Assembly (NCBI GenBank): GCA_022791495.1
Contig: JAAVZE010000046.1
Coordinates: 1-48,964, forward strand
Source of the DNA: Eubacterium sp.
Lineage (GTDB): Bacteria > Bacillota > Clostridia > Lachnospirales > Lachnospiraceae
DNA length: 48,964 nucleotides
Direction of reading: 5' to 3'
Each line of letters begins with the position of its first letter. Position 1 is the first letter of the stretch. A program made the translations under genes and the position numbers. Below, piece after piece: positions 14,689 through 45,478 of the stretch. The notes beneath the pieces were generated by a model that saw only the letters and a program-made list of their open reading frames with translations, searched no databases and was not told where the DNA came from.

Positions 14689-15936
14689 CTACTGATATCC
14701 CTCGTAGTATGCCCTCATCCTACACTGAAAGTTTCTATTATCATTATTTTCCAAACTCTCAAACCATCCATCAATATTTGATGAGGTAATAGAATTTTTC
14801 CGTAATATACCTGCAATATCTGTAGCTGATACAATTAATATCGGATGGCCATCTTCCGTTACTTCTCTATAAGCCTGGTTATGCACATAACTAGTCGTAA
14901 TCAATACACCAAATTGCCTATATCTTATTCTTGATATAAGACGAGACATTTCTCGTACTCCAACCGAATGATTTTTTGAATAACACTTAGCCTCCATTGC
15001 GCAGTCAATTCTTAGCGGATAGTTAGCTTTGCTGCCACCACCAATTATGTAATATCCCAAAGCATCCCGTCCACCATCTCTCCATGGTCTTGTAAGTGAA
15101 AAATCCTGAAAACGCTCATCCATTTTTTCTAAAATATCCTTTGCACAATTTTCAAAACCATATGGATTCTCATGATAATGTTCTCTGATTTTCGTTAAAC
15201 ATAGAGTTCCTTCATTATCACTTTGCAACTGATCATATTTTGTAGGTACTTTAGGTATTTTTTTTGCAATTAACGGTATTATCCCATTACGCCCATGCAT
15301 AATAAAATTCTTCCAAACATCTGGGGCATATTGAATGCTCTCGTCATGATTGTATATAAGAGCATTTAACCATTTTCTACTAATGGGCGACACAGTTTCC
15401 AAAACTGTGAAATATGCCTCATAATTTTGAAAACGCTTATCATCCATTGTCCTCCAAAAAGCTACCAAATCTTTATCTGGAGAGATTTTAGGATTACCCG
15501 GCGCAGCTAATCCCAAAAACTGTACATCCCATCCTTGTCCGCCTTTTTTGAATATTAGAAAAGGCGGAATATTTTTAATAGATCCATCTATACTATTGAG
15601 ACAATTATATACAAATTCTAACAATAAATTTCCTTTTCTGGGGGTATCAAGTATGGTCTTCCCAGGTGTACGATTATCTCCATAATATCGAAAAACACCT
15701 GTTTCTTCATCCAAATAATCCGGCCAAGCAAGTTCTTGCATTGATGTGTAAAGTACAACATACGCAGGCAGCCCACTACCATCCTTCCGCATCACCTTAC
15801 GAAAACCGCCAGAGTTACTGCAATTAGGAAGCAATTTTGAAAGTACCTCTGAGGCCTTACCACTAATATTACCACCTTTATATATTGTATCAACTACTAA
15901 ATCTGCACTTTGCAATTCGTTAAAGGATACTTCCAT
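14689..15936 (-). CDS. AspBHI-like modification-dependent restriction endonuclease
   Basis: Probable type IV enzyme cutting DNA with modified cytosine. ATG 15936 follows GGAAGG by five bases; the frame stays open to 16020 without a ribosome site. The N-terminal half (about 1-200, ELQSADLVVDTIYKGG and TPGKTILDTPRKG) resembles the AspBHI recognition domain. The C-terminal part is an Mrr-like PD-(D/E)XK nuclease: GRDALGYY near residue 300, EAKCYSK near 325, then VREMSRLISRIRYRQFGVLITT. No methyltransferase is adjacent, as expected for an enzyme attacking modified DNA. The gene is visibly more AT-rich than the trk and ABC genes around it, which suggests transfer. The exact specificity cannot be read. 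Confidence 0.82.
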   Translation of the reverse strand: MEVSFNELQSADLVVDTIYKGGNISGKASEVLSKLLPNCSNSGGFRKVMRKDGSGLPAYVVLYTSMQELAWPDYLDEETGVFRYYGDNRTPGKTILDTPRKGNLLLEFVYNCLNSIDGSIKNIPPFLIFKKGGQGWDVQFLGLAAPGNPKISPDKDLVAFWRTMDDKRFQNYEAYFTVLETVSPISRKWLNALIYNHDESIQYAPDVWKNFIMHGRNGIIPLIAKKIPKVPTKYDQLQSDNEGTLCLTKIREHYHENPYGFENCAKDILEKMDERFQDFSLTRPWRDGGRDALGYYIIGGGSKANYPLRIDCAMEAKCYSKNHSVGVREMSRLISRIRYRQFGVLITTSYVHNQAYREVTEDGHPILIVSATDIAGILRKNSITSSNIDGWFESLENNDNRNFQCRMRAYYEGYQ

Positions 15937-16009
15937 AATTACCTTCCCTTTCCTATTTTTATTCTTGTTTACCATAATATCTTCTTTGTTAAAAATCAGG
16001 ATTGCAAAC

Positions 16010-18334: not shown

Positions 18335-19099
18335 ATGGCTTTGAATTATTTACTGGAAATGAATCATGTAAAAAAATCCTTTGCGGATCTGGAAGTACTC
18401 AAGGATATTTCCCTAAAAGTAGCAGAGGGCGAAGTGCTCTCCATCATCGGTCCCTCCGGTTCCGGCAAATCCACTCTTCTGCGCTGTGCCACCCTGCTGG
18501 AAAAAATGGATTACGGGGATCTGAGCTATCTGGGCAGAACTGCGGCTTCCATCCAGGGAGATACCTGTGTCTATGCCAAAAACACATAACTTGAGACCAT
18601 CAAAGAATACTTTGGACTGGTTTTTCAGAACTTTAACCTGTTTCCTCACTACACCTTTATGAAAAATAGTACAGATGCGCCGCTTCATGTGCAGAAACGC
18701 CCGAAGGCAGAAGTGATGAACGAGGCAGAGGATCTTTTGGGAAAAATGGGTTTGAGCGATAAAGCGGACTATTATCCCCACCAGCTCTCCGGCGGACAGC
18801 AGCAGCGCGTCGCCATCGCCAGAGCTCTGGCGCTGAATCCAAAGGTTCTCTTTTTCGACGAACCAACCTCTGCGCTGGATCCGGAACTCACCGGAGAAGT
18901 CCTGAAAGTGATCCGCTCCCTGGCAGAAGCCAAAATGACGATGGTGATCGTAACCCACGAAATGGAATTCGCCAGAAATATTTCTGACCGAATCATTTTT
19001 ATGGATCAGGGCGTGATTGCAGTGGAAGGCACCCCAGAAGAGGTATTCCATTCTGATCATGTGAGGATGAATGAGTTTCTGGGGAAACTGAATCGGTAG
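18335..19099 (+). pseudogene. Amino-acid ABC transporter ATPase with in-frame TAA
   Basis: One reading frame of 254 sense codons encodes a GlnQ/HisP-type ATPase: Walker A GPSGSGKSTLLRC (about residue 45), signature [15 protein letters not shown], Walker [15 protein letters not shown], and the switch His in VTHEM. Codon 85 (18587-18589) is TAA, in a place where relatives have Glu or similar, so a single base change (for example GAA to TAA) explains it. The first product (84 residues) has Walker A only. A restart at ATG 18659 would lack Walker A. Without read-through or another ATPase the transporter should not work. Confidence 0.88.
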
Positions 19100-19111
19100 G
19101 AGGCAGAAGAT

Positions 19112-20983
19112 ATGTCTGTATGTTTTACATGGATTAAAAATGAAAAAAGTTATTTAATAGCAGATACTCTTATGTCTTCAACCCAAAATATAATAACATC
19201 TTCTTATACACCTTTTCATCAACGCAAGGAATTTGTAAATGGATATTATATTGAAGAGGATGGGTTAAAAATATACGAAATTTCCAACGATATGGTCATT
19301 GCTGTTGCCGGTAATGTTCCTTCATACACTGAAATACTCCAGCAAATATATAATATTAATGATACTTTAACTATCCATAAGTTATTAGAGTTACTGCAAC
19401 TAAATTTTATGCATTTGTTAGAAAATGTTAAAATGCTTTTTTTGTATAAAGAATTTGGAAAGAATAAAATAATTGTTTGGGATGGTAATTGTTCATATGA
19501 ACCTACTAATACATCCATACCCATTTTTATTGGGTGTGGTGCAGACAATATCAAATTTACAGAAGCTGTTAAAAAAGCAATTTTATGTAATAACGATCAT
19601 GATTCAAACCAGTATCTTTCATTAATTATATCTTATGTTCAATGCCTATCCATGAAATTGAAAACAATACGAAATGGATTTGGTGGTACATTTTATGGTC
19701 TTTTTATATCTTCAAAAATTCAATGGATGCGTGATTTAGAGTATGTCTTACTAACACGAAATGGAAGAATTTCACAATTAATATCAGTTATTATTAGAAA
19801 AAGTTCTGTCATTATTTCCTCATCCATGGAAAATACTACACGCCTGTTAACCAATTTTTATAAAAGTACTGAGTGGTTTAGTGAATACCATAACATGAAA
19901 TCCGTATTGCGGGCTGTAGATACAAAAGAAGCCTTCTATTATATTTTTTATGGTCTAAAAAGCAACCAAATTTATTTATGGGAAGCAAAAGGAATACTTA
20001 TTAGAAATGATTTCAGAAAATGGATTAAACGAGGTGAAAAAAAAGTTGATTATCTATATGCAATAGACACTTCTCTTGCAAATATGATTACTAGTGGAAA
20101 AGGCAAAATTCTTGAACCACAGGGTCATATTTTGTCAATCATTGGAAGTACTTATCTCTCTTTAGACGCAGTTTCAACTGATGTTATCAAACAGTTACAT
20201 AAAACAAAAATACTAGTTGGATATGACTATGATTTTGTTGCGTTAAATTGCTCATCTTTTAACAAAGATCATATAAAAATGATACGCAGAAATATCAATA
20301 ATTTTTATAACATAGTTGTGATAGATTATGATTTCTTTTGCAAGAAAATATTAGAAGAAAACCTTGCATTTTATCAAGATTATAATTTTGATTTGACCAA
20401 TATGCACTTAGAATTATTATTAAGACATTGTTTGCAAAATGATTATTATGTTGAATATTCAAAAATTAAAATTGTAGTTGTTAAAAGTACGAAAGATTAT
20501 ATCATAAATAACGTTAATATAACTTCATGGTTTCAAAATTATCATAACTGTTCATTTATTATAACTGATAATAAGGAAAAAGATTTATCTGAATTGCTTA
20601 TTTATTGGATAAAAGAATATTATATCAACGAAAAATACTTTCATCTGGGAATGAATATTCTAATTGCAGATAATTTAGTCTTTGGTCAAATATTAGATTT
20701 GCTAGTTCCTCTTGAACGCCGACATTATAAATGCGCAGATTGGATACTCGTAAGACTAAATAACAGCAATACTTCCATGCCTGGTGGTTTCAATTATGTT
20801 AATGAAGAATGGGCCTTTTTAGATTTACTTAATTTAGATACAGGATATCCACTCCAAAAAGAAATTGCAGTTACAGAAAGGGAACAAGAATTATTATCCG
20901 GAATAGGACAAAACACTATTCATGATTGGACTCAAAATAAAAGTTTATTTAATAACATTAAACTAGTTGATCCCACAAAGTAA
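19112..20983 (+). CDS. Large uncharacterised protein with Ntn-hydrolase (proteasome)-like N-terminus
   Basis: A 623-residue protein with no family I can name. AGGAGG lies eight bases before the ATG and only 12 bp separate it from the ABC ATPase gene. Codon use is strikingly AT-rich compared with both neighbours. Residues 1-210 follow the HslV/Anbu/proteasome pattern: FTWIKNEKSYLIADTLMSS, then KIYEISNDMVIAVAG, FIGCGADNIKFTEAVKKAI and NGFGGTFYGLFI. The position of a catalytic N-terminal Thr, Ser or Cys is unclear (the start reads MSVC), so it may be inactive or processed. The remaining 400 residues show no motif I recognise. No signal peptide or membrane span is evident. A role in conflict or stress is inference from its setting. 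Confidence 0.6.
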   Translation: MSVCFTWIKNEKSYLIADTLMSSTQNIITSSYTPFHQRKEFVNGYYIEEDGLKIYEISNDMVIAVAGNVPSYTEILQQIYNINDTLTIHKLLELLQLNFMHLLENVKMLFLYKEFGKNKIIVWDGNCSYEPTNTSIPIFIGCGADNIKFTEAVKKAILCNNDHDSNQYLSLIISYVQCLSMKLKTIRNGFGGTFYGLFISSKIQWMRDLEYVLLTRNGRISQLISVIIRKSSVIISSSMENTTRLLTNFYKSTEWFSEYHNMKSVLRAVDTKEAFYYIFYGLKSNQIYLWEAKGILIRNDFRKWIKRGEKKVDYLYAIDTSLANMITSGKGKILEPQGHILSIIGSTYLSLDAVSTDVIKQLHKTKILVGYDYDFVALNCSSFNKDHIKMIRRNINNFYNIVVIDYDFFCKKILEENLAFYQDYNFDLTNMHLELLLRHCLQNDYYVEYSKIKIVVVKSTKDYIINNVNITSWFQNYHNCSFIITDNKEKDLSELLIYWIKEYYINEKYFHLGMNILIADNLVFGQILDLLVPLERRHYKCADWILVRLNNSNTSMPGGFNYVNEEWAFLDLLNLDTGYPLQKEIAVTEREQELLSGIGQNTIHDWTQNKSLFNNIKLVDPTK

Positions 20984-21017
20984 ATAAAAGATTTAACCAT
21001 GAGGCCCTATTCCTTAC

Positions 21018-22507
21018 CTAATCTCTCATTGCCTCCTCCAGAAACTGCTTAAAATCCTCTTCTGGATAGTTCTCTGTATACACCATCTCCAGATTTTTAT
21101 AACTGATTTGTGTGTTTGGATGATCCCGTCCAAGTTTTAATTTACAAATTTTATATGCTTTTAAATAATAATTTATTGCTTCTTTGTACCTTCCCTGGCT
21201 CTCATACACTCCTGCCAGATTATTATAACCCGCAGCTATTTTCGGGTGCTCCTTCCCAAGCACTCTTTTACTTATAATTAGAAATTTTCGATATAATTCT
21301 TCCGCTTCCTTATACCTTCCCTGTCTATCATACACCCTGCCAGATTATGATAACCCACGGCTGTATCCGGATGCTCTTCCCCCAAAACTTTTTCACTTAT
21401 ACTCAAACTTTTTTGATACAGTTCTTCCGCTTCCTTATATCTTCCCTGATCCCCATACACCACTGCCAGATTATTATAACTTGCAACTGTATCTGGATGC
21501 TCTTCTCCCAATACCTTTTCTTTTATCCTTATACTCTTTAGATGCAATTCTTCCGCTTTCTTATACCTTCCCTGGCTCTCATATACCAATGCCAGATTGC
21601 TATAGCTCTCAGCTGTTTGTGGATGCCCCTCTCCCAGCACCTTTTCTCTTATACTAAGGCTCTTTTTATTCAGTTCTTCCGCTTCTTTATACCTTCCCTG
21701 GCTCTCATACACCACTGCCAGATTATTATAACCCGCGGCTGTGTCCGGATGTTCTTCTCCCAGCACCTTTTCTCTTATACTAAGGCTCTTTTGATTTAGT
21801 TCTTCCGCTTCTTTATACCTTCCCTGATTTATATACACCTCTGCCAATTCGGAATCAATTTCTGCCATCTCCAAGTGCTCTGGTCCAAGCAGTTTTTCTT
21901 TTATCTTTCGCGCACGCAGCAACATTTTTTCGCTCTCAAAATAATGCCCTTTATCTTTCTCCTCCTTTGCCTGCTCGATCAGATCATATGCCTCTGCTAA
22001 TTTTTGTTTTAATACCTCTGGTTCTTCTACATTCTCTAACACCAGTTCTTCTTCCTCTGGAAGCAGTCTCTCCGCTTTTACAGATTCCGTTTCATCATCA
22101 AATAAAATGCGGAGCTTTACAAAGGAATAAAAATCATATGCTCCACATACCAGGCTGTCATCCCCGTAGGGTGTAATTAGAAAAATAAAATTTTTTCCAA
22201 GTCCGTCGATCATATCCCTGCTGAAATTCAGGCGTCTCAGACTCTCCTCATCCTGTAATGCAAGATGAAAGTTGGCGATCATAAAAACCCGGGTCTCCGG
22301 CAGGCTGAGAACCCACTCCTGCAGATCACGAAAAGAATAAGCCCCCGGATGCTGCTTATAATCATAAATCTCCACTCCCCCCCTCCGGTAAATTCCAACA
22401 ATCTCCTTCTGTATCCTTTCCTCTGCCACCACAAGATACAATCCCTGCTCTGATTTATCAATGATCCACCCCAGTGTCTGAAATCCATCCTGGCTATTTT
22501 TCAGCAT
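21018..22507 (-). pseudogene. TPR protein partner of the ATPase, one frameshift
   Basis: ATG 22507 begins a protein with a 170-residue N-terminal globular region (LGWIIDKSEQGLYLVVAEER, then FMIANFHLALQDEESL and FIFLITPYGDD) that I do not recognise. A charged helix follows, then about seven kinesin-light-chain-type TPRs of 42 residues (AASYNNLAVVYESQGRYKEAEEL style). Near 21340 the frame breaks: GGG appears where sister repeats require GGGG or GGAG. The array resumes one frame over (YDRQGRYKEAEEL) and ends at 21018. The start overlaps the ATPase stop by 14 bp, so the two are translated together. It is either a pseudogene, a shorter 409-residue product, or a read error. Confidence 0.82.
21030..21870 (-). 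repeat. Tandem 126-bp repeats encoding TPRs
   Basis: About six and a half head-to-tail units of 126 bp are visible, each encoding a 42-residue TPR with RYKEAEEL and EKVLGEEHPDT. The middle units are nearly identical in DNA (for example around 21400-21530 and 21660-21790), which suggests recent duplication or homogenisation. The last units toward 21018 diverge. Confidence 0.88.
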
Positions 22508-23807
22508 CCTGTATCAACCCCTGTTCTCTGAAAAATTTGATAACTAACGGATGTACATTATGCCACCGTTTTCCGTTATATTCCAACACCACGGAAGCCT
22601 GGAGCATATTCAGCAGCATCTCCTTATCTTCGATCCGTTCCTTGTTTTCATTATATATATTCAATAAAAACTTATAATCCTTTTCCTCGATGCGTCTTGT
22701 CAGCAACGTCTTTACCTCTTCCAGGGCACGCCCTGCATCTTCCATGGAGACGGTATCACTCCCCCTGCGCTTTGCCCGGTTTGCCGATGTATTGATCACA
22801 TGGAACAGATCCCGAAGGGAACCTCCAGTATACTGAATCAGTGAATCCACAACGCCAGTCTCAAACAGGGCTAAATCCGCACGCTTCTTTACGATATCGC
22901 GTATGATATCTATCCCGTCCTGGAAAGGCTTGCCTTCTATCGTTTCGATCTTTATCATGGGGAGTGTCTTGGTTGTAAAATAACTCTCCATCGCCGAGAA
23001 CCTTTTGTCATAGGAAAGACCAATAGGAAAAGTATAGATCACCGGAAAGGTCATCCCCGAAAGAATCGCCGCATAATTATAAAATACCGTCCAAGCGTCT
23101 TCTGGATTCAGTTTATCAAGATCCTCAAAAATGATGATCGGATGCTTCCCACCGGTTTCACCGGTGATTTTTTCCGCTAACTGTCTTAAAATCCCTATCC
23201 ATTCACTGGAACGAATGCTAATTTTTTTCCGGTACTCTTTCCTGGTTTCTTCGTTTAATTTTAAGTCTGCCCTGATTTTTGCGAACACACTTAATATCCC
23301 TGCCAGTATCCCTCCGGTTTCAAAGGACATCCCTGTCTCCACAGAAACTCCCCCTGTTTCCTGGGACATCAACATTTCTGTTCCCTCAAACCAAAAATTC
23401 TTAATGTTCTCAAGAACCTTGTCCTCTATCTCACATTTTAATTCTTCCGCAATTTTTAGCAACGCCTCTCCCAGCAATATAAAAAGGTCAGAATATACAA
23501 TATTAAACAGATCCAAATCCAGACTGCAGTTAATGGTTTTCACCGGATATCCGTCGGCAGCCAGTCTTTCGGACATTCTGTTCAGCTCCGTACTCTTTCC
23601 ACACCCTCTGTGTCCCAGCAACAGGTAAGCACCGCATTCATCAAAACTCCTGCAGCTGTCATAAATATCCTCGATGGGAGAGTCGTACTTATCACTTGTA
23701 CGGTATTCCATCGTATTCTCACAGTAAAATTCTTCCATCTGATCTGCCTGCAAGGGAGCTGGGGAAAAAGCATTTAAAATTTCCGAGATCTGATCTGCAT
23801 ATTTCAT
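22494..23807 (-). CDS. STAND/AAA-type P-loop ATPase
   Basis: A 437-residue ATPase with Walker A LLLGHRGCGKSTEL near residue 65 and Walker B PIIIFEDLDKLNPEDAW near 225. A probable sensor-like GGSLRDLFHVINTSANRAKRRG lies near 330 and a winged-helix-like tail follows. Between the P-loop and Walker B there is a Gly-rich, possibly membrane-contacting stretch (FETGGILAGILSVFAKI). AGGAGG sits nine bases before ATG 23807. It overlaps the TPR gene by 14 bp. This arrangement of a sensor-type NTPase with a TPR partner is like prokaryotic STAND conflict or signalling systems, but no effector domain is recognisable, so the job is inferred. Confidence 0.75.
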   Translation of the reverse strand: MKYADQISEILNAFSPAPLQADQMEEFYCENTMEYRTSDKYDSPIEDIYDSCRSFDECGAYLLLGHRGCGKSTELNRMSERLAADGYPVKTINCSLDLDLFNIVYSDLFILLGEALLKIAEELKCEIEDKVLENIKNFWFEGTEMLMSQETGGVSVETGMSFETGGILAGILSVFAKIRADLKLNEETRKEYRKKISIRSSEWIGILRQLAEKITGETGGKHPIIIFEDLDKLNPEDAWTVFYNYAAILSGMTFPVIYTFPIGLSYDKRFSAMESYFTTKTLPMIKIETIEGKPFQDGIDIIRDIVKKRADLALFETGVVDSLIQYTGGSLRDLFHVINTSANRAKRRGSDTVSMEDAGRALEEVKTLLTRRIEEKDYKFLLNIYNENKERIEDKEMLLNMLQASVVLEYNGKRWHNVHPLVIKFFREQGLIQDAEK

Positions 23808-26259: not shown

Positions 26260-27486
26260 TCATATCTCCACTACCTCCTGTTCCAGTTTACAATTCTGTT
26301 CCAGCATATAGGCCAGGGTATCCCGGTAATCCTCCACAGCCGTCCCCTCTGCCACCTGCCTCGTCAGTTCATCATACAGTGACTGAAGCCGTCTGCGATC
26401 ATTCCCAGTCAGGGGCATGGTGCTTCCCCGATATTTCTCCAGCACTTTTCTATCCATCATCAAGGACATGAAAGAGATCCCTGTCTTTTTCTTTAGATGT
26501 TCTAATATGTAAAAACCTCCGGCATCGATGTCTCCGAAGTGGCGGTATTCCTTATGTGAATTCTGCTTATATAGGAACAGGAGAAACTCCCGTTTTACCT
26601 TATTGTGGAATCCCCCCAGGTAGACCACAAAGTCGCTGCCGGAAGGGAACTCATGAAAGGTGGTCAGATTCTCAATCGTGACAACCCGCTCTCCCAATAC
26701 CTCTGCCTGCCGCAATTCCTTTAGGGAACTGGTGGAAAGGGCCAGATCACCTTCGATTTGGGACAGGTCTATCCTCTGTGACCCGAGGCGGATCCGGGCA
26801 TTCCCTTTCATCACGACATAGGTCGGCGTCCGGACAATGCCGCATTCTTCTAACACAGAGTCCTTGTCTCCGTATTCGCCATAGCGGAATAACAAGGCTT
26901 TCAACCGGGGTGCCAGTTTCTCAAGACGTTTTGAATTCGCAAAAAGTTGTATGGAAAGGGTGCGGATAAATATTTCCTGTTCATTGGAAAGTGCTGCAAC
27001 CGCCAATTTTAGCAGATCTCTGTAATCCTCCAGATCCTGTTCATAGTATTCGACGTTCTTATTACCCGCTATCCGCTCTTTCTGCACTTCGATATAATCC
27101 CATAACGGCTGCAGTCTCCCGTCACCCCTCTGGGATTCATGGCACAATTCTTCCCAGAGCTCCGTGATGTGCGCCTGTTCTTCTTTCCGTGGGGTGCGCC
27201 CCAAGGCTTTGTAACATTCATCCAGCCTGTCCCGATTTAAAACCACCTTTTTCAGAATACCATTTCTTTCTCTTTCCAGAAAAACAAAGGAAAGGTTTTC
27301 TAATTCCTCCAGGGACTCATTGACACGGCAGAAGAAATCATACTCCGAGTCGTCCTTATACCGGGGAAACAGCCTGTCCACCGGGACGCTGAAACTCTGG
27401 CTGACCTTGTTGATCTCTAAAAATGTTTTACTTTTTTCGTATAAATCTAACAGGTGCTGCAGCACCTTACCCTGTAACTGGTTCAC
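26260..27486 (-). CDS. jetD: Wadjet protein JetD (TOPRIM nuclease)
   Basis: Nuclease subunit of the Wadjet (MksBEFG-like) anti-plasmid system. By family knowledge it cleaves circular DNA once the SMC motor has extruded it. GTG at 27486 overlaps the jetC stop by four bases (GTGA), so translation is coupled. The 408 residues have an N-terminal arm and winged-helix region (about 1-200) and a C-terminal TOPRIM domain with Glu272 (VVTIENLTTFHEF) and Asp319/Asp321 (HFGDIDAGG), the metal ligands. All key residues are present. It is last gene of the jetABCD operon. Confidence 0.93.
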   Translation of the reverse strand: MNQLQGKVLQHLLDLYEKSKTFLEINKVSQSFSVPVDRLFPRYKDDSEYDFFCRVNESLEELENLSFVFLERERNGILKKVVLNRDRLDECYKALGRTPRKEEQAHITELWEELCHESQRGDGRLQPLWDYIEVQKERIAGNKNVEYYEQDLEDYRDLLKLAVAALSNEQEIFIRTLSIQLFANSKRLEKLAPRLKALLFRYGEYGDKDSVLEECGIVRTPTYVVMKGNARIRLGSQRIDLSQIEGDLALSTSSLKELRQAEVLGERVVTIENLTTFHEFPSGSDFVVYLGGFHNKVKREFLLFLYKQNSHKEYRHFGDIDAGGFYILEHLKKKTGISFMSLMMDRKVLEKYRGSTMPLTGNDRRRLQSLYDELTRQVAEGTAVEDYRDTLAYMLEQNCKLEQEVVEI

Positions 27487-30400
27487 AGATCATATTCCTC
27501 CACAATGCTGTTTTGTCCCATCCGGATCGCAGTCAGGATCGTGCCCACCTGCTCGCCGATGATCTCGATCTTGGCCGGCGGAGTTGCCAGGATCACCTGA
27601 AGCCCCAGCCCATTGAAAAAGTCCATCATGGACTGGATGCGCTCGTCATCCATCTTGTCAAATGCCTCATCCAACAGCATCAGACGCACACTATTGCCAT
27701 AGTGGTACAGCTGATAAAAGGAAGCCGCGATGGCCACGTAATAGGGAACCTGTGTCTCGCTGCCGCTCTTTTCACCGTAAATATCAGAAAACCGCTGCAC
27801 GGAACCATCTTTTTTATGGATCTCGATGTCATAGTCCAGATAGGAGCGATAATCCGTATATTCCTCCACAATTTTATTTCCATTGTCATCACGGGTCATC
27901 AGTTTGTCAAACAGATCGGACATCTCTTCCTTATACTCCGCTTCAAATGCATTGGTCCAGAGATTGACGCCTTCGTGATTATTTTCCGATGTGATCATCC
28001 GGTAAAGGCCTTCTTTGTTTTTATCAAAGCTGATCTTAAAATGATAGTTATCATCCCCATAATAGATATTGCTCAATGCCTTGTTCAGACTGCGGAACTC
28101 ATTTCGAGCCGCCTCAATATGCTCTTTCATCCGGGACAAAAAGTCGCTGCGGAAAATTTCCTCACAATCTTCTTTCGCAGATTTTAGTTTCTCCTCGTAC
28201 CGGATAATGTCCACGGACTGCAGTTTTTGTCTGGCCTCCCGATATTCCGCCATCCCCTCTGTGCCCGTCATAAAATCCAGGGTGTAATTCTGATTAAACT
28301 GCATCTGCAATGCCCGGAGGCCGTGACTGCCGTTCAGCAGCTCATCCCTCTCATTCACAAACTGGGAATGCTGCGGGGCAAAATTTTCTGCGATCTTCCG
28401 CGCCGATTTCGTCTTATGGTTCTGCTGGTATTTTTCCTCCGCTTCTTTGTAGAGAAGACCCTCGGCATCCGATTGCTCCTGCAGCTGCCGTAAAAGAGAT
28501 TCGGATTCCTTTCCCATCCGGAGAGCTTCCTTCTCCGACTGTTCAATCTGGTTATCCAGCCGCATATTCTCTTTGCCAAGGGCATCCCTTTCATCCCGCA
28601 ATTTCTTTATTTCCTGCTGTTTTGCCTCCAGGCGGATCGTGAGTTCTATCAGCGTGGGGTCATTGGAAGCGGCCTTTAGTTCCGCTTCTGCTCCCGCAAG
28701 CTGTCCCTGCATATCCAGGAGATTTTCCGGAGCATACAAATACAGTTTGATCAGCTCCAGCTTTACTTCCCCGGCACTTTTCCTGACCTCAGAATACTGG
28801 GTTACCTTCTCCCGGAGCATGCTTCGCTGCCCGGTCATATCCTCAATCTCTTTCTTTACATTCTCGATCTGTACGCGGTATGCATTCTGGCCGATAAAGG
28901 GGTTCTTATAGTGTGCCGGATTAATGTGCCGCACCACATAGCCCTGATAGAGCATACACTCCGGCGTGATGGACACCGCATAATCCCCCAGCTCTCCCAC
29001 CGTATCACAGCGCATAACACGTCCCAGTATATAGTTTGCATAGGCTCTGGCATAACGGTTTTCGCTCTTAACCACATAGGCCAGCGACTGCTGTTCAACT
29101 TCACCATCCAGCGGAAGTTTTTTACTGTTGATAATACCGGCGGTATGGATCCGGCTGCGTTTTTTATCGTATACCTCCAGTGCCACATCGTAGTACTCCG
29201 GCTCTACCACCAGATAAAATTTCTGGGTGTGAAGATACCCTTCCACCGCATTGCTCCATTTCGTATCGGTAATTTCCAGCAATTCAGAAAGAAAATACAC
29301 CCCTGAGAGGATACCCCGTCTGGCAAACTCCTTTTCCACTGCATTCTTCAATCTTCCAGCATACTCCGGGTAGGGAAGGATCTGTTTTTTCAATTGTCGC
29401 AGACGCTCCTGGCAGGCGTCAATCCCATCAGAAATAACACGCATCTCTTCAGAGTATCTCGCCCATTCCAGCTCCAGTTCCTTTTGTTCCTTCTGTAAAA
29501 ATGCCTCCAGTTTCTCCATGATGGCATTCTTTTCCTCTTTCTCTCCCACATCCTTCAGGCACTCCCACTGCCTCTTGCTGACCGGTTCATAACCCAGTCG
29601 GGATACATTCCTAAGATATTCTCCCAGCCGCTGAAGCTGCTCCTCCAGCTTCTTCTTTTCCTTTTCTTTTTCTGTGATGGACAACTGCAGGGAGGCAATC
29701 TGCTTTTCTGCCTCTGCCCGCTGCCGGTTAGATGTGTTTGTCTCCTTATCCACGTTAATGGCGACAATCTGTTCTTCCACATTTCTTATGTTCCGCTCCA
29801 GGAGATCCAGCGCCTCGTTATTAGACTGCATTATCTGCCTTTTCAGACGGATCTGCTTCATGAGTCCCTCCCGTTCTTCCTGAAGGGCAGAACAGTTGGC
29901 GATCTGCAGAAGAATTTCATTCACCCGGATCGAATATTCCTTTGCCTCAATCTCGTCATGCTTCGCAATAATCTGTTCCAATCCTGCAAGCTGTCTCTTT
30001 GAACGGTCCAGAATGCCTTCCAGCTCGCTTAAGGTCTCTATATTTTCCCGAAGCGCCGCCACATCGATCTGCTTCTCCGATAGTACAAACTTATTAATAA
30101 ATTCTTTCACATTATCCATGGGCTTAAATGCCAGTGACTTGGGAATGATGTCAAAGAATTTATCATCCAGGTTTCCGAGGCGCCGCTTAAAACGCTCCCT
30201 GGCCGCCTGTTTCTGATCAATATAACGGATCTTACGGCCATTTACACGAAATTCTGCTGCCAGCGCCGGCCGCTGTCCCACGGTAAAGGATAATGCTTCC
30301 AATCGGCACTCTTCCACATACCATCTGGTTGCCACCGTACTTTCCTCATCCGGCGAGAGCATATGTACGCCAATAACAAAATATCGGTCATCCTTTTCTT

Positions 30401-30701
30401 CATAAAACTCTAATGCTACGTTAGCAGGTACCGCATTTTTCCTGAGATACGTCTCCCCTACATTTCCCATTTTACACCGCACATATCCCTTGAGATTCCG
30501 GTTTCCCTTTTCGTTTGCCGCCGTATTAAACCGACGTGTATTGGTTGTCAACACAAGCTGGACCGCATCCAGTATGGTAGATTTTCCTGCCGTATTTTCT
30601 CCGCTGATCAGGGTGGAACCATGAAAAGCTATTCTCTCATTTTCAAAATAGTGCCAGTTAATCAGCTGCACTCTCGTCAAAATTTTCTTCTGATTCTCCA
30701 T
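27483..30701 (-). CDS. jetC: Wadjet protein JetC (SMC/MukB-like ATPase)
   Basis: Loop-extruding SMC-like motor of Wadjet. ATG 30701 is preferred, with GGAGG eight bases upstream; an ATG at 30719 precedes that site. The 1072 residues show an N-terminal head with Walker A GENTAGKSTILDAV (about residue 40), long coiled coils (about 255-460 and 640-860) around a hinge (about 480-620, NAVEGYLHTQKFYLVVEPE), and a C-terminal head. That head has the ABC signature region (EKSGSETQVPYYVAIAASF) and Walker B LMLLDEAFDKMDDER. It overlaps jetB by 44 bp and jetD by 4 bp. The ATPase residues look intact. Confidence 0.95.
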   Translation of the reverse strand: MENQKKILTRVQLINWHYFENERIAFHGSTLISGENTAGKSTILDAVQLVLTTNTRRFNTAANEKGNRNLKGYVRCKMGNVGETYLRKNAVPANVALEFYEEKDDRYFVIGVHMLSPDEESTVATRWYVEECRLEALSFTVGQRPALAAEFRVNGRKIRYIDQKQAARERFKRRLGNLDDKFFDIIPKSLAFKPMDNVKEFINKFVLSEKQIDVAALRENIETLSELEGILDRSKRQLAGLEQIIAKHDEIEAKEYSIRVNEILLQIANCSALQEEREGLMKQIRLKRQIMQSNNEALDLLERNIRNVEEQIVAINVDKETNTSNRQRAEAEKQIASLQLSITEKEKEKKKLEEQLQRLGEYLRNVSRLGYEPVSKRQWECLKDVGEKEEKNAIMEKLEAFLQKEQKELELEWARYSEEMRVISDGIDACQERLRQLKKQILPYPEYAGRLKNAVEKEFARRGILSGVYFLSELLEITDTKWSNAVEGYLHTQKFYLVVEPEYYDVALEVYDKKRSRIHTAGIINSKKLPLDGEVEQQSLAYVVKSENRYARAYANYILGRVMRCDTVGELGDYAVSITPECMLYQGYVVRHINPAHYKNPFIGQNAYRVQIENVKKEIEDMTGQRSMLREKVTQYSEVRKSAGEVKLELIKLYLYAPENLLDMQGQLAGAEAELKAASNDPTLIELTIRLEAKQQEIKKLRDERDALGKENMRLDNQIEQSEKEALRMGKESESLLRQLQEQSDAEGLLYKEAEEKYQQNHKTKSARKIAENFAPQHSQFVNERDELLNGSHGLRALQMQFNQNYTLDFMTGTEGMAEYREARQKLQSVDIIRYEEKLKSAKEDCEEIFRSDFLSRMKEHIEAARNEFRSLNKALSNIYYGDDNYHFKISFDKNKEGLYRMITSENNHEGVNLWTNAFEAEYKEEMSDLFDKLMTRDDNGNKIVEEYTDYRSYLDYDIEIHKKDGSVQRFSDIYGEKSGSETQVPYYVAIAASFYQLYHYGNSVRLMLLDEAFDKMDDERIQSMMDFFNGLGLQVILATPPAKIEIIGEQVGTILTAIRMGQNSIVEEYDL

Positions 30702-31299
30702 TCCCTCGCCCTCCAGCATACTCCCTCAATTTTTGCTCCGTCAACGCAAAATACGCATTCACATCCTCAACAGGCACCGCCATAATGATCGACGGATAAA
30801 TAACAATCCGCGCGTCCGTCTGGGTTACGTCACTATCCAGATTCCGCAGCAGATTATATTTGCGGAACAGGCTGATCATATGCCGCTCCGTTCCTTTATC
30901 CAGAACCGGCTTTGCTTTTATTTTCAACATCGCATACTTTTCCCGTATCTCTTCCATCAGAACCGTAACTTCTTCCGAAAAAGTGGCAAGCTCTTTTCTT
31001 TTTTCTATGTATAACAATCGTATGATTAACAGAAAAATACTCTCATATTTCCCGAGGGACAGCCGCCCCGTGCCAAACTGACTGACCAGGCCAATTACAC
31101 CCTGTTCCTCATTTATTTTCAGATCGTAGCCCAGCAGATCAAAATACGGGATAAACATCTCCTTATTCTGCCGGACAAAAACATACTCTCTCCGTGTATC
31201 TTCCTTTTTCTTCAAAAGAAAGCACTGATTTAACAGCTTATTGGCCGCAACACGAAATTTTTCTTTTTGTGCCACAGACTCTTCAAACATCTCAAACAT
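30658..31299 (-). CDS. jetB: Wadjet protein JetB (DUF4194, kite subunit)
   Basis: MukE-like subunit that binds the JetC head and the JetA kleisin. The start is ATG 31299, one base after the jetA stop, with AAAGGA eight bases upstream. The frame stays open to 31407, but those 36 codons lie inside jetA. The 213 residues match DUF4194: KFRVAANKLLNQCFLLKKKED, EYVFVRQNKEMFIPYFDLLGYDL, then two winged-helix-like regions (TGRLSLGKYESIFLLIIRLLY and RHMISLFRKYNLLRNL). Tight packing with jetA and jetC fits a single translated complex. Confidence 0.93.
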   Translation of the reverse strand: MFEMFEESVAQKEKFRVAANKLLNQCFLLKKKEDTRREYVFVRQNKEMFIPYFDLLGYDLKINEEQGVIGLVSQFGTGRLSLGKYESIFLLIIRLLYIEKRKELATFSEEVTVLMEEIREKYAMLKIKAKPVLDKGTERHMISLFRKYNLLRNLDSDVTQTDARIVIYPSIIMAVPVEDVNAYFALTEQKLREYAGGRGNGESEENFDESAAD

Positions 31300-31300
31300 G

Positions 31301-32698
31301 TCATGTATCCTTTCTGATAATATCAAAATATGGCAGAGAAAAACCGGCAATCTGAGTACGCTCCCTGGTTCTGCGGATGGTATAATTATTTGACCGGTTT
31401 CCGGCATAAATACTAATATAAATGATCCGCAGCAGATCTCTGCGGGACTCTACCGATATTTCATTCACGGCCATCTGAGTACGGTCTTTCAGAATATCCA
31501 TAACATAAGCATTGATGTTTTTCCTGGAAAAGCGATTGCGGTTTTTAATACGGAGCGCCTCCTTATAGAGCTGACGCTCCTCTGCACTCATACGGTTTTC
31601 TTCCGACAGCTCGTCCACCCTGCCCAATGTTTTAGTAACCGGTATACTCTGCAGGGATTCCGGTGAAATATAATTCTGCGGATATAACGCGACAAGATTC
31701 TGTATTTCATTTTCAAACCCATCTTCTATCCCGTCACTATTTAACTGCTCTACATACCGATTTAATATCTGTGATAATTTTCCTTCCAGATTATTCCCAG
31801 TAGCCAAAAGGAACTTCGCCCGCATCACTGCATTTCTCATATACCGTGTATGTTTGCGGTCTATTTCATCTATAATATCGTCCAGACGATAAAAAGAAGA
31901 CTTCACATCCAGAAGCATCTGCACCAGGCGATCATACGCTGCTTCCTCGTCCGTCTCCTCCTCAACCTCTATATATCCAGCCACCGCCCGGTCCATAATA
32001 TCCGGCGTCTCCAATATATACTCCAGCCGTTCGATGATCGCACTCCGGAAGTAGGATATATTCTCACTGGTCTTCATACGCAGATATGCCTTCGAGCCAA
32101 TATTTTTATGATATTCAAAAAAATGATCCAGAATCTCATCCGCCTCCATCTCATTGGTCTGCTTTTCCATATGACGTTTTATACTGGCATTTAACTTTTT
32201 GAGCTCGGACAACAGCCTCTCCGTATTTTCCTGTACCCCCTTAATAATCAGCTCATAAGGTTTACTATACAGATCCTCATTCTGCAGGCTGGCATGAATC
32301 TGGGAAATGATGCCCTGATACTCTGCCTCCTCTTCCCGGATCACCCGGTTCATGCTCTCAATGATTGGGATGGCATATTCATACAGAACAACATTCAACT
32401 GATGATTTGTCTCCTGTTCATATTCTATCCAGCCACAGCTTTTTAACATTGCTATCACACCGTTTGCCTTTTCCCTTGCATCCCGGATGTACGTCTCATC
32501 ATCAAAAGTCATCTCCGAATCGTCTGCCTCAAAATAATCCGATAATATCCTGACAACAATCTCACGGTTTATCCCATAAGAAATCTCTGATTTAAAAGAG
32601 TTAAGAAGCAGCGTTATGCAGTCTGCATACTCCCGTCGGTATTTACTGGTCAACGGCCTGAAAAACTGAGAGGGAAGGATATCAAATAAATGTTTCAC
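31301..32698 (-). CDS. jetA: Wadjet protein JetA (kleisin-like, DUF5716 type)
   Basis: Kleisin (MukF-like) subunit bridging the JetC heads. The start is GTG 32698 (KHLFDILPSQFFRPL), eight bases after AGGAG; the ATG at 32740 would put that ribosome site inside the gene. The 465 residues have an N-terminal winged-helix region (about 1-120, with GWIEYEQE), a long helical middle, and a C-terminal domain (about 370-465, RFSRKNINAYVMDILKDR). They match the type of JetA found with DUF4194 and TOPRIM partners in Firmicutes. It is first gene of jetABCD. No adjacent gene suggests extra subunits. Confidence 0.9.
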   Translation of the reverse strand: MKHLFDILPSQFFRPLTSKYRREYADCITLLLNSFKSEISYGINREIVVRILSDYFEADDSEMTFDDETYIRDAREKANGVIAMLKSCGWIEYEQETNHQLNVVLYEYAIPIIESMNRVIREEEAEYQGIISQIHASLQNEDLYSKPYELIIKGVQENTERLLSELKKLNASIKRHMEKQTNEMEADEILDHFFEYHKNIGSKAYLRMKTSENISYFRSAIIERLEYILETPDIMDRAVAGYIEVEEETDEEAAYDRLVQMLLDVKSSFYRLDDIIDEIDRKHTRYMRNAVMRAKFLLATGNNLEGKLSQILNRYVEQLNSDGIEDGFENEIQNLVALYPQNYISPESLQSIPVTKTLGRVDELSEENRMSAEERQLYKEALRIKNRNRFSRKNINAYVMDILKDRTQMAVNEISVESRRDLLRIIYISIYAGNRSNNYTIRRTRERTQIAGFSLPYFDIIRKDT

Positions 32699-32730
32699 TT
32701 TCTTCTCTCCTTTAACAACTCTTATGATAT

Positions 32731-32759
32731 ATTTTCTCAAATTTTCAAACGGATGTCAA
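32731..32759 (-). promoter_or_regulatory. Possible Wadjet operon promoter
   Basis: TTGACA (32759-32754), 17 bp, GAAAAT (32736-32731). The -35 is consensus and the -10 is weak (4 of 6). Confidence 0.5.
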
Positions 32760-35441: not shown

Positions 35442-36143
35442 TTAATTTGATAATCCACAAATAAGTGTTTGGAGTTCATCTACTTTTTTTTCCAACATAC
35501 TAATGCCCGTTTTTTCTTTTTTGCTAAACTGCTCTTTTAAAAGCTTTTGAAAATAACTAGACCACTGTTTTTTCAACATTTCTTCTATATCAGTTTCTTT
35601 TTTAAAAGGAAAAATATTATTTCCACAACCTCTTAATCTGACAATATTTATAAATTCAAAAATATATTTAGCCATATCTTGTTTTTCTATCGAAGGAAAT
35701 GTAATTTCACTAATAATTGACTTATTCTTATTTTTTTCGTACAATTTATGATCACTAAGTACATCATCTTTAATAAATGTATATACTGGAATCCCATATT
35801 CAATAGCTTTCAAAACTTCTAAATGTGTTATTGAAAGCCGTTCACCATCTATTACTGTTCCTGCTTTTACTTTTTCTTTAACTTTTTCAAAATCCACTAT
35901 AGATACAGCTTCACTTATAGCGTTTCCTCCAAAACGTCCACCTATAAGCAGGACAAGCATATCACAATTTTTGACTTCCTCTATACAACTGGTATGTGTA
36001 TGAATTCTGGGATCATATAAAACATCTCCATATTCACTCATCACAGGTTCATAGCCAATATTATAAATAAAATCTCTCAGACCATCCCTCATATTATCCA
36101 AATCATAACAAGTTGATGATATAAAAACCTTTAATATTGACAC
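35442..36143 (-). CDS. DUF4062 protein
   Basis: A 233-residue protein opening with the DUF4062 signature VFISSTCYDLDNMRDGL. NCDMLVLLIGGRFG and SITHLEVLKAIEYGIPVYTFI follow, giving a Rossmann/TIR-like fold across about residues 3-150. The C-terminal half is charged and helical (about 170-233). DUF4062 domains occur at the N-terminus of STAND NTPases and other conflict proteins; here the domain stands alone without an NTPase, so it may be a sensor or signalling piece. The gene is very AT-rich relative to the nitrilase gene nearby, suggesting transfer. The exact role is unknown. Confidence 0.82.
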   Translation of the reverse strand: MSILKVFISSTCYDLDNMRDGLRDFIYNIGYEPVMSEYGDVLYDPRIHTHTSCIEEVKNCDMLVLLIGGRFGGNAISEAVSIVDFEKVKEKVKAGTVIDGERLSITHLEVLKAIEYGIPVYTFIKDDVLSDHKLYEKNKNKSIISEITFPSIEKQDMAKYIFEFINIVRLRGCGNNIFPFKKETDIEEMLKKQWSSYFQKLLKEQFSKKEKTGISMLEKKVDELQTLICGLSN

Positions 36144-36974: not shown

Positions 36975-37616
36975 CTAATTTTCCTCCCAATAACCACATT
37001 CATTACTTACATCATTTATAGTTCTTGCATATACCGACCTAGACTTGTCATTGGGAAACTTATTTTTGTATTCTTTATATTTGTACCTCACATATTGCCA
37101 TTCATTTACATCAGAACTCTTTAACCATTCAGCTTTATCCTCTAAATCATCCTCTTCTGATTGTGGCTCCCATAAGTATCTATTATTCTTCTTATCATAA
37201 TATATATATTCACGATAGCCATCAATATCTTTTCTAACAATGCAAAAATCAACGCTATGTAATATCTTAGAATGTTTAAAATCCTTGACTTTAATAGTTG
37301 CCACCCTTTTGCTGTCTTCCGAGTTATCATATTGAAAACACTTTACAAATTTGTCCAAACCTCGTCTGAAAATTTCTTTCACCTTTTTTGGTGGCATATC
37401 CCAACATGTTTCATCAATTTCAATATTAATATCAAAATCATAGCCTTTGTTTGAATTATAATCCCTTGTAACCATATTTCGGGATGCACTGCCAACAAAA
37501 TAAAAATTGAATTTCAGCGTTCCTCTAAGTTCGTTCTTTAGCATCTGAATTAACTTAATAACCTTCTGCTTTCTCATACCTACTTCTTTCTTGTGTACAT
37601 ACCTATAATCTGCCAT
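36975..37616 (-). CDS. Nucleotidyltransferase-fold protein
   Basis: A 213-residue pol-beta-type nucleotidyltransferase. The signature is FVGSASRNMV followed by YDFDINIEI (Gly-Ser, then Asp-x-Asp about 14 residues on), with a third acidic residue in SVDFCIV near residue 125. All three catalytic acids are present. AGGAGG lies eight bases before ATG 37616. There is no HEPN or cap gene beside it, so it is not an obvious MNT-HEPN or CBASS pair. RNA, protein or nucleotide signalling targets are all possible. It is AT-rich like the DUF4062 gene. Confidence 0.78.
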   Translation of the reverse strand: MADYRYVHKKEVGMRKQKVIKLIQMLKNELRGTLKFNFYFVGSASRNMVTRDYNSNKGYDFDINIEIDETCWDMPPKKVKEIFRRGLDKFVKCFQYDNSEDSKRVATIKVKDFKHSKILHSVDFCIVRKDIDGYREYIYYDKKNNRYLWEPQSEEDDLEDKAEWLKSSDVNEWQYVRYKYKEYKNKFPNDKSRSVYARTINDVSNECGYWEEN

Positions 37617-43788: not shown

Positions 43789-44322
43789 CTACTTTCCGCC
43801 CTTCTTAATCTGCTCTGCTACATACGATAAAAGTAAAGCATCGTCATTCGTGCTAAGCTGTGTTCCATTTAACACATATAGTATAAGGTTATTTGCATCA
43901 CTATTAATTGCTCTGTAAGTTGTATTTTTGTGAGCCTGATTTTGAGAATTATTAGGACCTGGAGTGTCTACAAGCATTAAAGCTGTGTTCTTCGCATCAA
44001 GAAACGGAATATTACCAGTTGCTGATATTCTGTGCGCATTTTCATCGTCATTTAGTTCGCTCATTACTTCATATGTAAGCTCTGGGATTTTCTGAAGAAC
44101 AACATCATCGACATCATGTACAACAGCCGTAAATGTCTCCATATCATTATCTAATATTTCAGTAATTGTTGCTGTACATGCTTCATTCTTTGATGGCATT
44201 AATTTTTTGTCTAGTAATGCGTTAATAAGTGTAGACTTGCCAGAACTCATTGTCGCAATTACATTTATAGGAAATACAGAATTGTTAATATTTGCAAATG
44301 CTCTTTTCTTCCTGCGACTCAT
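43789..44322 (-). pseudogene. Second dynamin-like GTPase, G1-G3 region only
   Basis: The frame has the dynamin-type P-loop NVIATMSSGKSTLINALL (G1), then KLMPSKNEACTATITEI (switch I Thr) and LMLVDTPGPNNSQN (G3). It ends at TAG (43791-43789) after EQIKKGGK. The following codons still read VRDRFLF, as expected before the G4 NKxD, then sequence homology stops near 43755 beside DUF6075. So a Gln-to-stop change and a large 3' deletion are both present. The 5' end overlaps the first dynamin remnant in another frame. Confidence 0.82.
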
Positions 44323-45478
44323 CTTCGATTATTATCTTTGGGAAACGAGTTTTGTAATATTCTTCCAATTTCATCCACTCAAACTTATCAATGTAATTGT
44401 ATAACTCTCGTTCCTCACTTCTAGATAATCCAGCAGATAAAAATTGTTTTGCCAAGTAACCAGCTCTTGCAGATACCAGACAAACCACAGGATCCTTGAA
44501 TCCTTTCTTCTTTAAATACTCCTTTTGCCTATTTATGGTTTCTATTACATCCTCATCTTCTACGTTAAATGAATCAATTTTATTCATAACAAAGATTACT
44601 GGTGTTCGACCTATGGTTTGCTTCACAAATTCCAAATGCCCTTGTTCATCATTTGTTGCAAGCTGCGTAGAATTCATAACATAAACTAATAAATTATATC
44701 TACGTCCTTTAATTAACCTATCTGCAATCAGCTTATGTTCACTGTCACCACTAAAGTTAACTCCAGGAGAATCATTTATAGCGATTCTTTCATTTGCTTA
44801 GCCCCCGACAAAGTGGGTTGAAACATATATTTTGTCTGACGTATTTAACTCATTATCATTCAGTAGCTCCTCTTTTCCTGCAGTCATTACCAAATCATGA
44901 TCATATTCATATGAAAAACCATCTTCAAATGGCTTATTTATTATGCTATGTATCTTACTCGTACATTCCATATTTTGTAATAGACATATATACTTGCCTG
45001 TTAATGAATTAATAAACGTAGATTTAAAAGGAAAAAAATCATATTTTTCTGTCCCAATATGCTCTGTACCATGCCTTTCATACCATTTCCGCAACTTTAC
45101 ATTTTCTTCTACAATTCCAATATTCATCTGTAGACATCCCATCTTTCTGGCTTCCGAAACGGCATGTTTCAAAAGCTGTTCTCCAATCTGTTTATGTCTG
45201 TATTCCTCTAACACACATAAATTATTCAGTTCACATTCCTTTTCATTTTGTTTCAACCAAGAATAATATCCTACCATCTTACCATTCTCATAGTATGCAA
45301 ACATCGATCTCTGTTCCTGCTCCAATTGATAAAGCAGACGTTCCTCTGTTGTCGCAAATGCTGTAAATCTTGGCGCGTTTTCTACCGTAAATCCAAACTC
45401 GTCTGCCGCTGTCATAAAACTTTTGCAAATGACTTCTACACAGTCTGGTATTTCATTTTTACTGATTTTATGAATCAT
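44285..45478 (-). pseudogene. GNAT acetyltransferase fused in frame to a dynamin-like GTPase, with internal TAA
   Basis: ATG 45478, with GGAGG seven bases upstream, starts a GNAT enzyme (acetyl-CoA loop ECELNNLCVLEEYRHKQIGE, about residues 80-105). At about residue 152 (FFPF) the frame passes directly into a dynamin P-loop tail, KSTFINSLTG, lacking its glycine part. MECTSKIHSII follows, then TAA at 44800-44798. The same frame continues with G3 INDSPGVNFSG and G4 VIFVMNKID to 44285. A deletion joined two genes without breaking frame; a later stop split it. The GNAT half could still fold and be active, with a 75-residue tail. Confidence 0.83.

Follow-up and report, generated by a model that had tools for sequence, protein, structure and literature searches.

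What is a 623-residue protein with a proteasome-like start doing 12 bp behind the end of an ABC transporter operon, with defence genes upstream and downstream? The question arises in Eubacterium sp. (Lachnospiraceae; assembly GCA_022791495.1, contig JAAVZE010000046.1), in a stretch of 48,964 nucleotides that was analysed as a whole and is called the window here. The open reading frame (623 open codons starting at ATG) and the proteasome-like beginning of its product, P0001, were confirmed as first described from the letters and translations of the DNA (the sequence-only reading). Features are collected in Table 1.

Table 1 Features in and around the P0001 gene. Positions are counted from the first base of the window.
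Feature	Position	Strand	Basis or remark
Inserted segment	19112..21004		Absent from G017, G024 and G001, which carry a strong GC-rich hairpin there
P0001 gene, 623-aa proteasome-fold protein	19112..20983	+	ORF listing and full-length relatives L025 (596 aa) and L027 (608 aa from MTYC)
Shine-Dalgarno AGGAGG	19098..19103	+	8 bases 5' of the ATG; overlaps the stop of the ABC ATPase ORF; also in empty-site relative G017
Residues 1-213, proteasome beta-type Ntn-hydrolase domain (predicted)	19112..19750	+	
Ser2, candidate N-terminal nucleophile once Met is removed	19115..19117	+	Thr in the other 6 alignment rows
Asp18, equivalent of proteasome Asp17	19163..19165	+	7/7 rows
Residues 21-51, loop peculiar to the family, between Asp18 and Lys53	19172..19264	+	Low pLDDT
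Lys53, equivalent of proteasome Lys33	19268..19270	+	7/7 rows; aligns with the archaeal beta KKIYQI region
Residues 216-384, conserved middle region, low model confidence	19757..20263	+	No similarity to the N-terminal domain
Residues 385-600, alternating alpha/beta region	20264..20911	+	Invariant Asn400, Asp405, Glu416, Tyr421, Pro533
AspBHI-like modification-dependent restriction enzyme	14689..15975	-	PADLOC mREase_II 1e-132; Pfam RE_AspBHI_N 4.7e-51
Wadjet JetD, JetC, JetB, JetA	26260..32740	-	PADLOC

The first ~210 residues had been read as an Ntn-hydrolase, and the predicted fold and the conservation of catalytic residues bear this out. Structure prediction and fold search, the check proposed with that reading, gave a proteasome-type Ntn fold for the N-terminal part, and the alignments to several proteasome chains and to Anbu (5nyw) start at P0001 residue 2, set against chain residue 1; on this model, a proteasome fold of residues 1-213 is close to certain. 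By sequence position, the equivalents of Ser/Thr1, Asp17 and Lys33 are kept in all seven alignment rows, the lysine aligning with an archaeal region that we take to be the place of Lys33. Because Ser/Thr2, Asp18 and Lys53 persist in every row despite full-length identities to the window protein of 21-31%, catalysis has apparently been retained; activity is not assured, since the residue at position 142, beside the Ser129 region of the proteasome, may be S, N, I or C and Gly67, the equivalent of oxyanion-hole Gly47, is kept in six of seven rows and is Cys in Jeotgalibacillus. Some catalytic activity is judged fairly probable. Used alone, P0001 gave no significant match in Pfam, PADLOC, NCBIfam, PHROGs or PDB sequences, and the Pfam Proteasome model did not pick it up in its own genome; among six relative proteins or pieces scanned, one (Paenibacillus) passed the PF00227 cut-off and two more fell below it, the window protein giving no match.

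The ~400 residues said to be fused behind this domain were likewise found, residues 216-623 being common to the full-length relatives. This sharing, together with the five residues unchanged in seven rows (Table 1), marks the fusion as characteristic of the family rather than the product of chance read-through; the same N-/C-terminal arrangement occurs in three full-length proteins from different genera. Compared pairwise with the C. ihumii piece, the C-terminal regions are 24-37% identical, except that of the MAG copy (54%). Structure prediction of the C. ihumii piece gave a mean pLDDT of 45, with blocks of 51-81 at its residues 151-240, where strands and helices alternate. Fold searches with the C-terminal region gave no confident match and no effector fold; NYN/PIN nucleases were considered, and the hhalign probability for NYN was 0.1%, against a shallow six-row NYN alignment.

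With the proteasome beta / Ntn-hydrolase superfamily (PF00227), the P0001 family shares the fold of residues 1-213, the Ser/Thr1, Asp17 and Lys33 equivalents and one relative above the Pfam cut-off; it differs in starting M-[ST] without a propeptide, in a ~30-residue loop between the Asp and Lys positions, in the long C-terminal part and in its defence-rich surroundings. Anbu has characteristic operon neighbours and a C-terminal coiled coil and, to our knowledge, no 400-residue C-terminal part; no Anbu operon was seen by eye in the ORF lists of the eight loci described below, part of whose ORFs were scanned. Fuchs, Alva and Lupas (2021) added 22 families to the proteasome-like proteins, a number of them with C-terminal domains, and reported few clues to what they do and no genomic context suggestive of a function (PMC8665760). 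In that survey FC1-FC5 are Firmicute clusters, FC5 also being found in Actinobacteria, FC1 being called 'diverse' and FC4 having extra C-terminal domains likened to phage tail proteins (PMC8665760). As proteasome-like homologues of Firmicutes these clusters resemble the P0001 family, which, compared through the descriptions in the paper's text alone, could belong to FC1 or stand outside it. Connectase is alike in being a proteasome-fold enzyme that acts as a single chain; it differs in that it ligates proteins, belongs to some methanogenic archaea and has a helical insertion above the active site (PMC8665760). The fusion of a proteasome-like domain to a large extra region is borne out, and several C-terminally extended homologues in the survey provide a precedent for it (PMC8665760).

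The family is rare. Among 61 relatives and 391 genomes of the class, the sole true relative outside the window's genome was in G226 (28%, E 3.6e-27); a further match, in a P-type ATPase, was dropped. Six of 194 genomes of G226's family had matches, five of them true, including G226, and the match in G566 was dropped as a helicase. A wide genome-contig collection yielded nothing to a single-protein scan and five loci to a profile scan: Clostridium sp. MAG bin.369, C. ihumii AP5, Jeotgalibacillus salarius, Paenibacillus sp. cl123 and C. frigidicarnis; together with the window, G226 and G588 these make the eight distinct loci. In genome sets that overlap, the protein was present in 1/295 genomes of the window's order (its own), 3/68 of the Clostridium-type genus, 1/246 and 1/249 of the orders of the two Bacilli (both the query genomes) and, by N-terminal profile, 1/398 of the phylum (its own). 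The 36 other genomes of the same genus searched did not have it; searches of plasmids and IMG/VR yielded no relative, and phages gave only a chance-level match (E 2). Copies look full-length at three of the eight loci (window, 623 aa; C. frigidicarnis, 608; Jeotgalibacillus, 596) and are split or short at five, the MAG copy ending at 510 aa, the Paenibacillus copy at 375, and those of C. ihumii, G588 and G226 lying in several ORFs, for which assembly error may be responsible. Costly accessory genes are commonly found split or shortened.

The window carries the gene as a clean and recent insertion. In G017, G024 and G001, DNA identity of ~91% extends to 19111, directly 5' of the ATG, and is taken up again at 21005-21018, 17-49 bases occupying the empty site. 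The empty-site hairpin folds at -18.5 to -19.7 kcal/mol (z -2.9 to -3.6); the window junctions are without a strong hairpin (-7.0 and -2.3 kcal/mol). With the 3' hairpin missing at the insertion, expression in the window would probably come from read-through and translational coupling from the ABC operon. The gene, as had been remarked, is more AT-rich than that operon, with 27.9% GC (20.4% at third positions) against 44-48% (53-57%) in two measured ABC genes. The ABC ATPase gene directly upstream is represented by two ORFs in the window (18335-18589, 18659-19099) and by one 254-aa ORF in G020 (L053 3370-4134).

The 12-bp gap and the Shine-Dalgarno sequence at the operon end could suggest a housekeeping partner of the upstream amino-acid ABC transporter, the alternative named with the sequence-only reading. 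Permease matches were found in 16 of 39 same-genus genomes; ten are distant (56-63% identity, longer ORFs), and the orthologue, at 96-97% identity, is in five of 38 others, genomes of a genus in which P0001 was found in 0/36. Three of these five show the empty site, and at the other seven loci no such operon adjoins the gene, ABC-ATPase relatives lying ~4-8 kb from it in three. Since relatives have the operon with an empty site, the gene is not part of it; an ABC-linked housekeeping role is excluded by the three empty sites, and such a partnership is given almost no credence. In G004 and G020 identity ends at 19098 and different sequence follows, an AT-rich ORF in G004, where the contig stops short of the far side, and in G020 ORFs that resemble ABC-2-type transporters; the operon end likely exchanges cargo, as seen from one side only in these two genomes. 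The G004 ORF (L056 164-1243) has 359 aa and 29% GC and looks pentapeptide-repeat-like by eye.

The tabulation of neighbours across genomes placed PADLOC-type defence genes within ~5.5 kb in seven of the eight loci and found no specific neighbour in common; the eighth locus, Paenibacillus, is unscanned, its contig ending 1.2 kb upstream and its neighbours looking unrelated to defence by eye only. In the window the restriction enzyme lies 3.1 kb upstream and Wadjet JetA-D starts 5.3 kb downstream. In C. ihumii, GajA and GajB (Gabija) end 1.2 kb upstream, and the gap holds an AbiJ_NTD3-like protein that scores below the Pfam cut-off; in Jeotgalibacillus, a DUF2326 ATPase (PADLOC PDC-M68B) lies 0.5 kb upstream and a CTD12 ABC-3C protein is also present; in C. 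frigidicarnis, a type IV restriction helicase lies 1.1 kb upstream and PtuA and PtuB (Septu) ~5 kb off; in the MAG, a metallo-beta-lactamase-fold protein like LmuA/Avs1a lies 3.4 kb and HamB 6 kb downstream. G588 has PDC-S31 at 0.2 kb, and G226 a kinase with PADLOC kinase matches 1.9 kb upstream and a weak HEPN_Swt1 protein adjoining; the G226 kinase and PDC-S31 speak for defence less strongly than Gabija or Septu do. At E<1e-20, PADLOC matched 15 of 29 neighbour proteins scanned (7/10, 5/9, 3/10) and none of ten control genes, for which ten stretches of G226 and G588 each supplied their longest ORF (three matched more weakly, best 7.8e-13), a contrast that is inflated because neighbours were chosen partly for their defence-like look. 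ORF comparison across the eight loci (for the window, its ORFs between 9 and 31 kb) gave no neighbour family specific to the gene; cross-locus matches were ATPases, regulators and helicase-like ORFs, the strongest (69.7% over 76 aa) joining a response-regulator-like ORF of the MAG to a Paenibacillus ORF. No family of PADLOC-DB 2.0.0 matched P0001 at E<=10. The support gained for the idea of a defence factor is that of genomic context, at seven of eight loci.

The window restriction enzyme is also present in G004 (DNA identity); in G017 and G024 it is replaced by two genes that look McrBC-like by eye (L055 15492-18931; L057 565-4001), and this upstream place is a probable defence exchange site. 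The MAG gene before HamB (L023 16099-17583) resembles models of RT-associated proteases over residues 5-184 (E 2e-7) and models of HamA over residues 226-323 (E 4e-5), and is possibly a protease-HamA fusion in a Hachiman-type system. Elsewhere in the window, 21018-23807 encodes a TPR-repeat protein, which has an AAA-like ATPase neighbour, is shared with relatives and has many off-diagonal DNA matches suggesting a repeat array of varying length; 35442-36143 encodes a DUF4062 protein (Pfam 2.6e-19); 36975-37616 has a nucleotidyltransferase-like GS...DFD motif by eye and no Pfam or PADLOC match; and 43789-44677 contains dynamin-like GTPase sequence by eye, across two overlapping ORFs.

Judged from genomic context, a defence role of any kind is somewhat probable. 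That P0001 is a stand-alone defence gene, moved as single cargo between defence islands, and that its product is a proteasome-type peptidase which carries a sensor or targeting region of its own at the C-terminus, stands just short of an even chance; that it is a single-gene anti-phage system, an infection-activated protease with a proteasome-type Ntn-peptidase as effector and trigger recognition in the same chain, is proposed tentatively. Peptidase nature, C-terminal control and action against phage are what we infer. Methionine aminopeptidase would take off Met1 and expose Ser1 (Thr1 in relatives), and Ser1-Asp17-Lys33, residues seen in a predicted fold, would act as a proteasome-type active site. 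The C-terminal part would hold this site off, or out of a working assembly, until it sensed a phage product or a disturbed host process; the released peptidase would then cleave a protein of the phage or one that the host cannot do without, and phage production would halt. No partner gene would be required.

For defence we counted the fold and residues, the fusion, the neighbours, the clean insertion, the low GC, the patchiness and the split copies; against it, the absence of a PADLOC model and of mobile-element relatives, the variable position 142 and Gly67, and a total of only eight loci. Defence islands also carry non-defence cargo, and P0001 might be a general accessory enzyme, a connectase-like ligase or a stress or quality-control peptidase, riding in variable regions that collect accessory genes; by eye the Paenibacillus locus has no obvious defence gene, what adjoins the same operon end in G004 and G020 is other sequence and no known defence gene, and connectase is an example of a monomeric ligase with this fold (PMC8665760). 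The presence of Gabija, ABC-3C, type IV restriction or a PADLOC-candidate gene within ~1.2 kb at four loci speaks against such an enzyme, which we consider possible but somewhat doubtful. It is unlikely that the proteasome-type domain is a scaffold and the C-terminal region the true effector of a defence gene: the conservation of that region across genera, with its five invariant residues, would fit, as would the variation at position 142 and the Cys at Gly67 in Jeotgalibacillus, but the nucleophile, Asp18 and Lys53 are kept throughout at such low overall identity, and the fold searches offered no effector.

Read as a defence gene, the P0001 family gives one proteasome homologue a testable hypothesis, phage defence, and the empty sites in close relatives are natural with/without comparisons. 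If the hypothesis is true, the proteasome fold would join the proteases of bacterial immunity, with a built-in regulator and in a form clonable as one gene.
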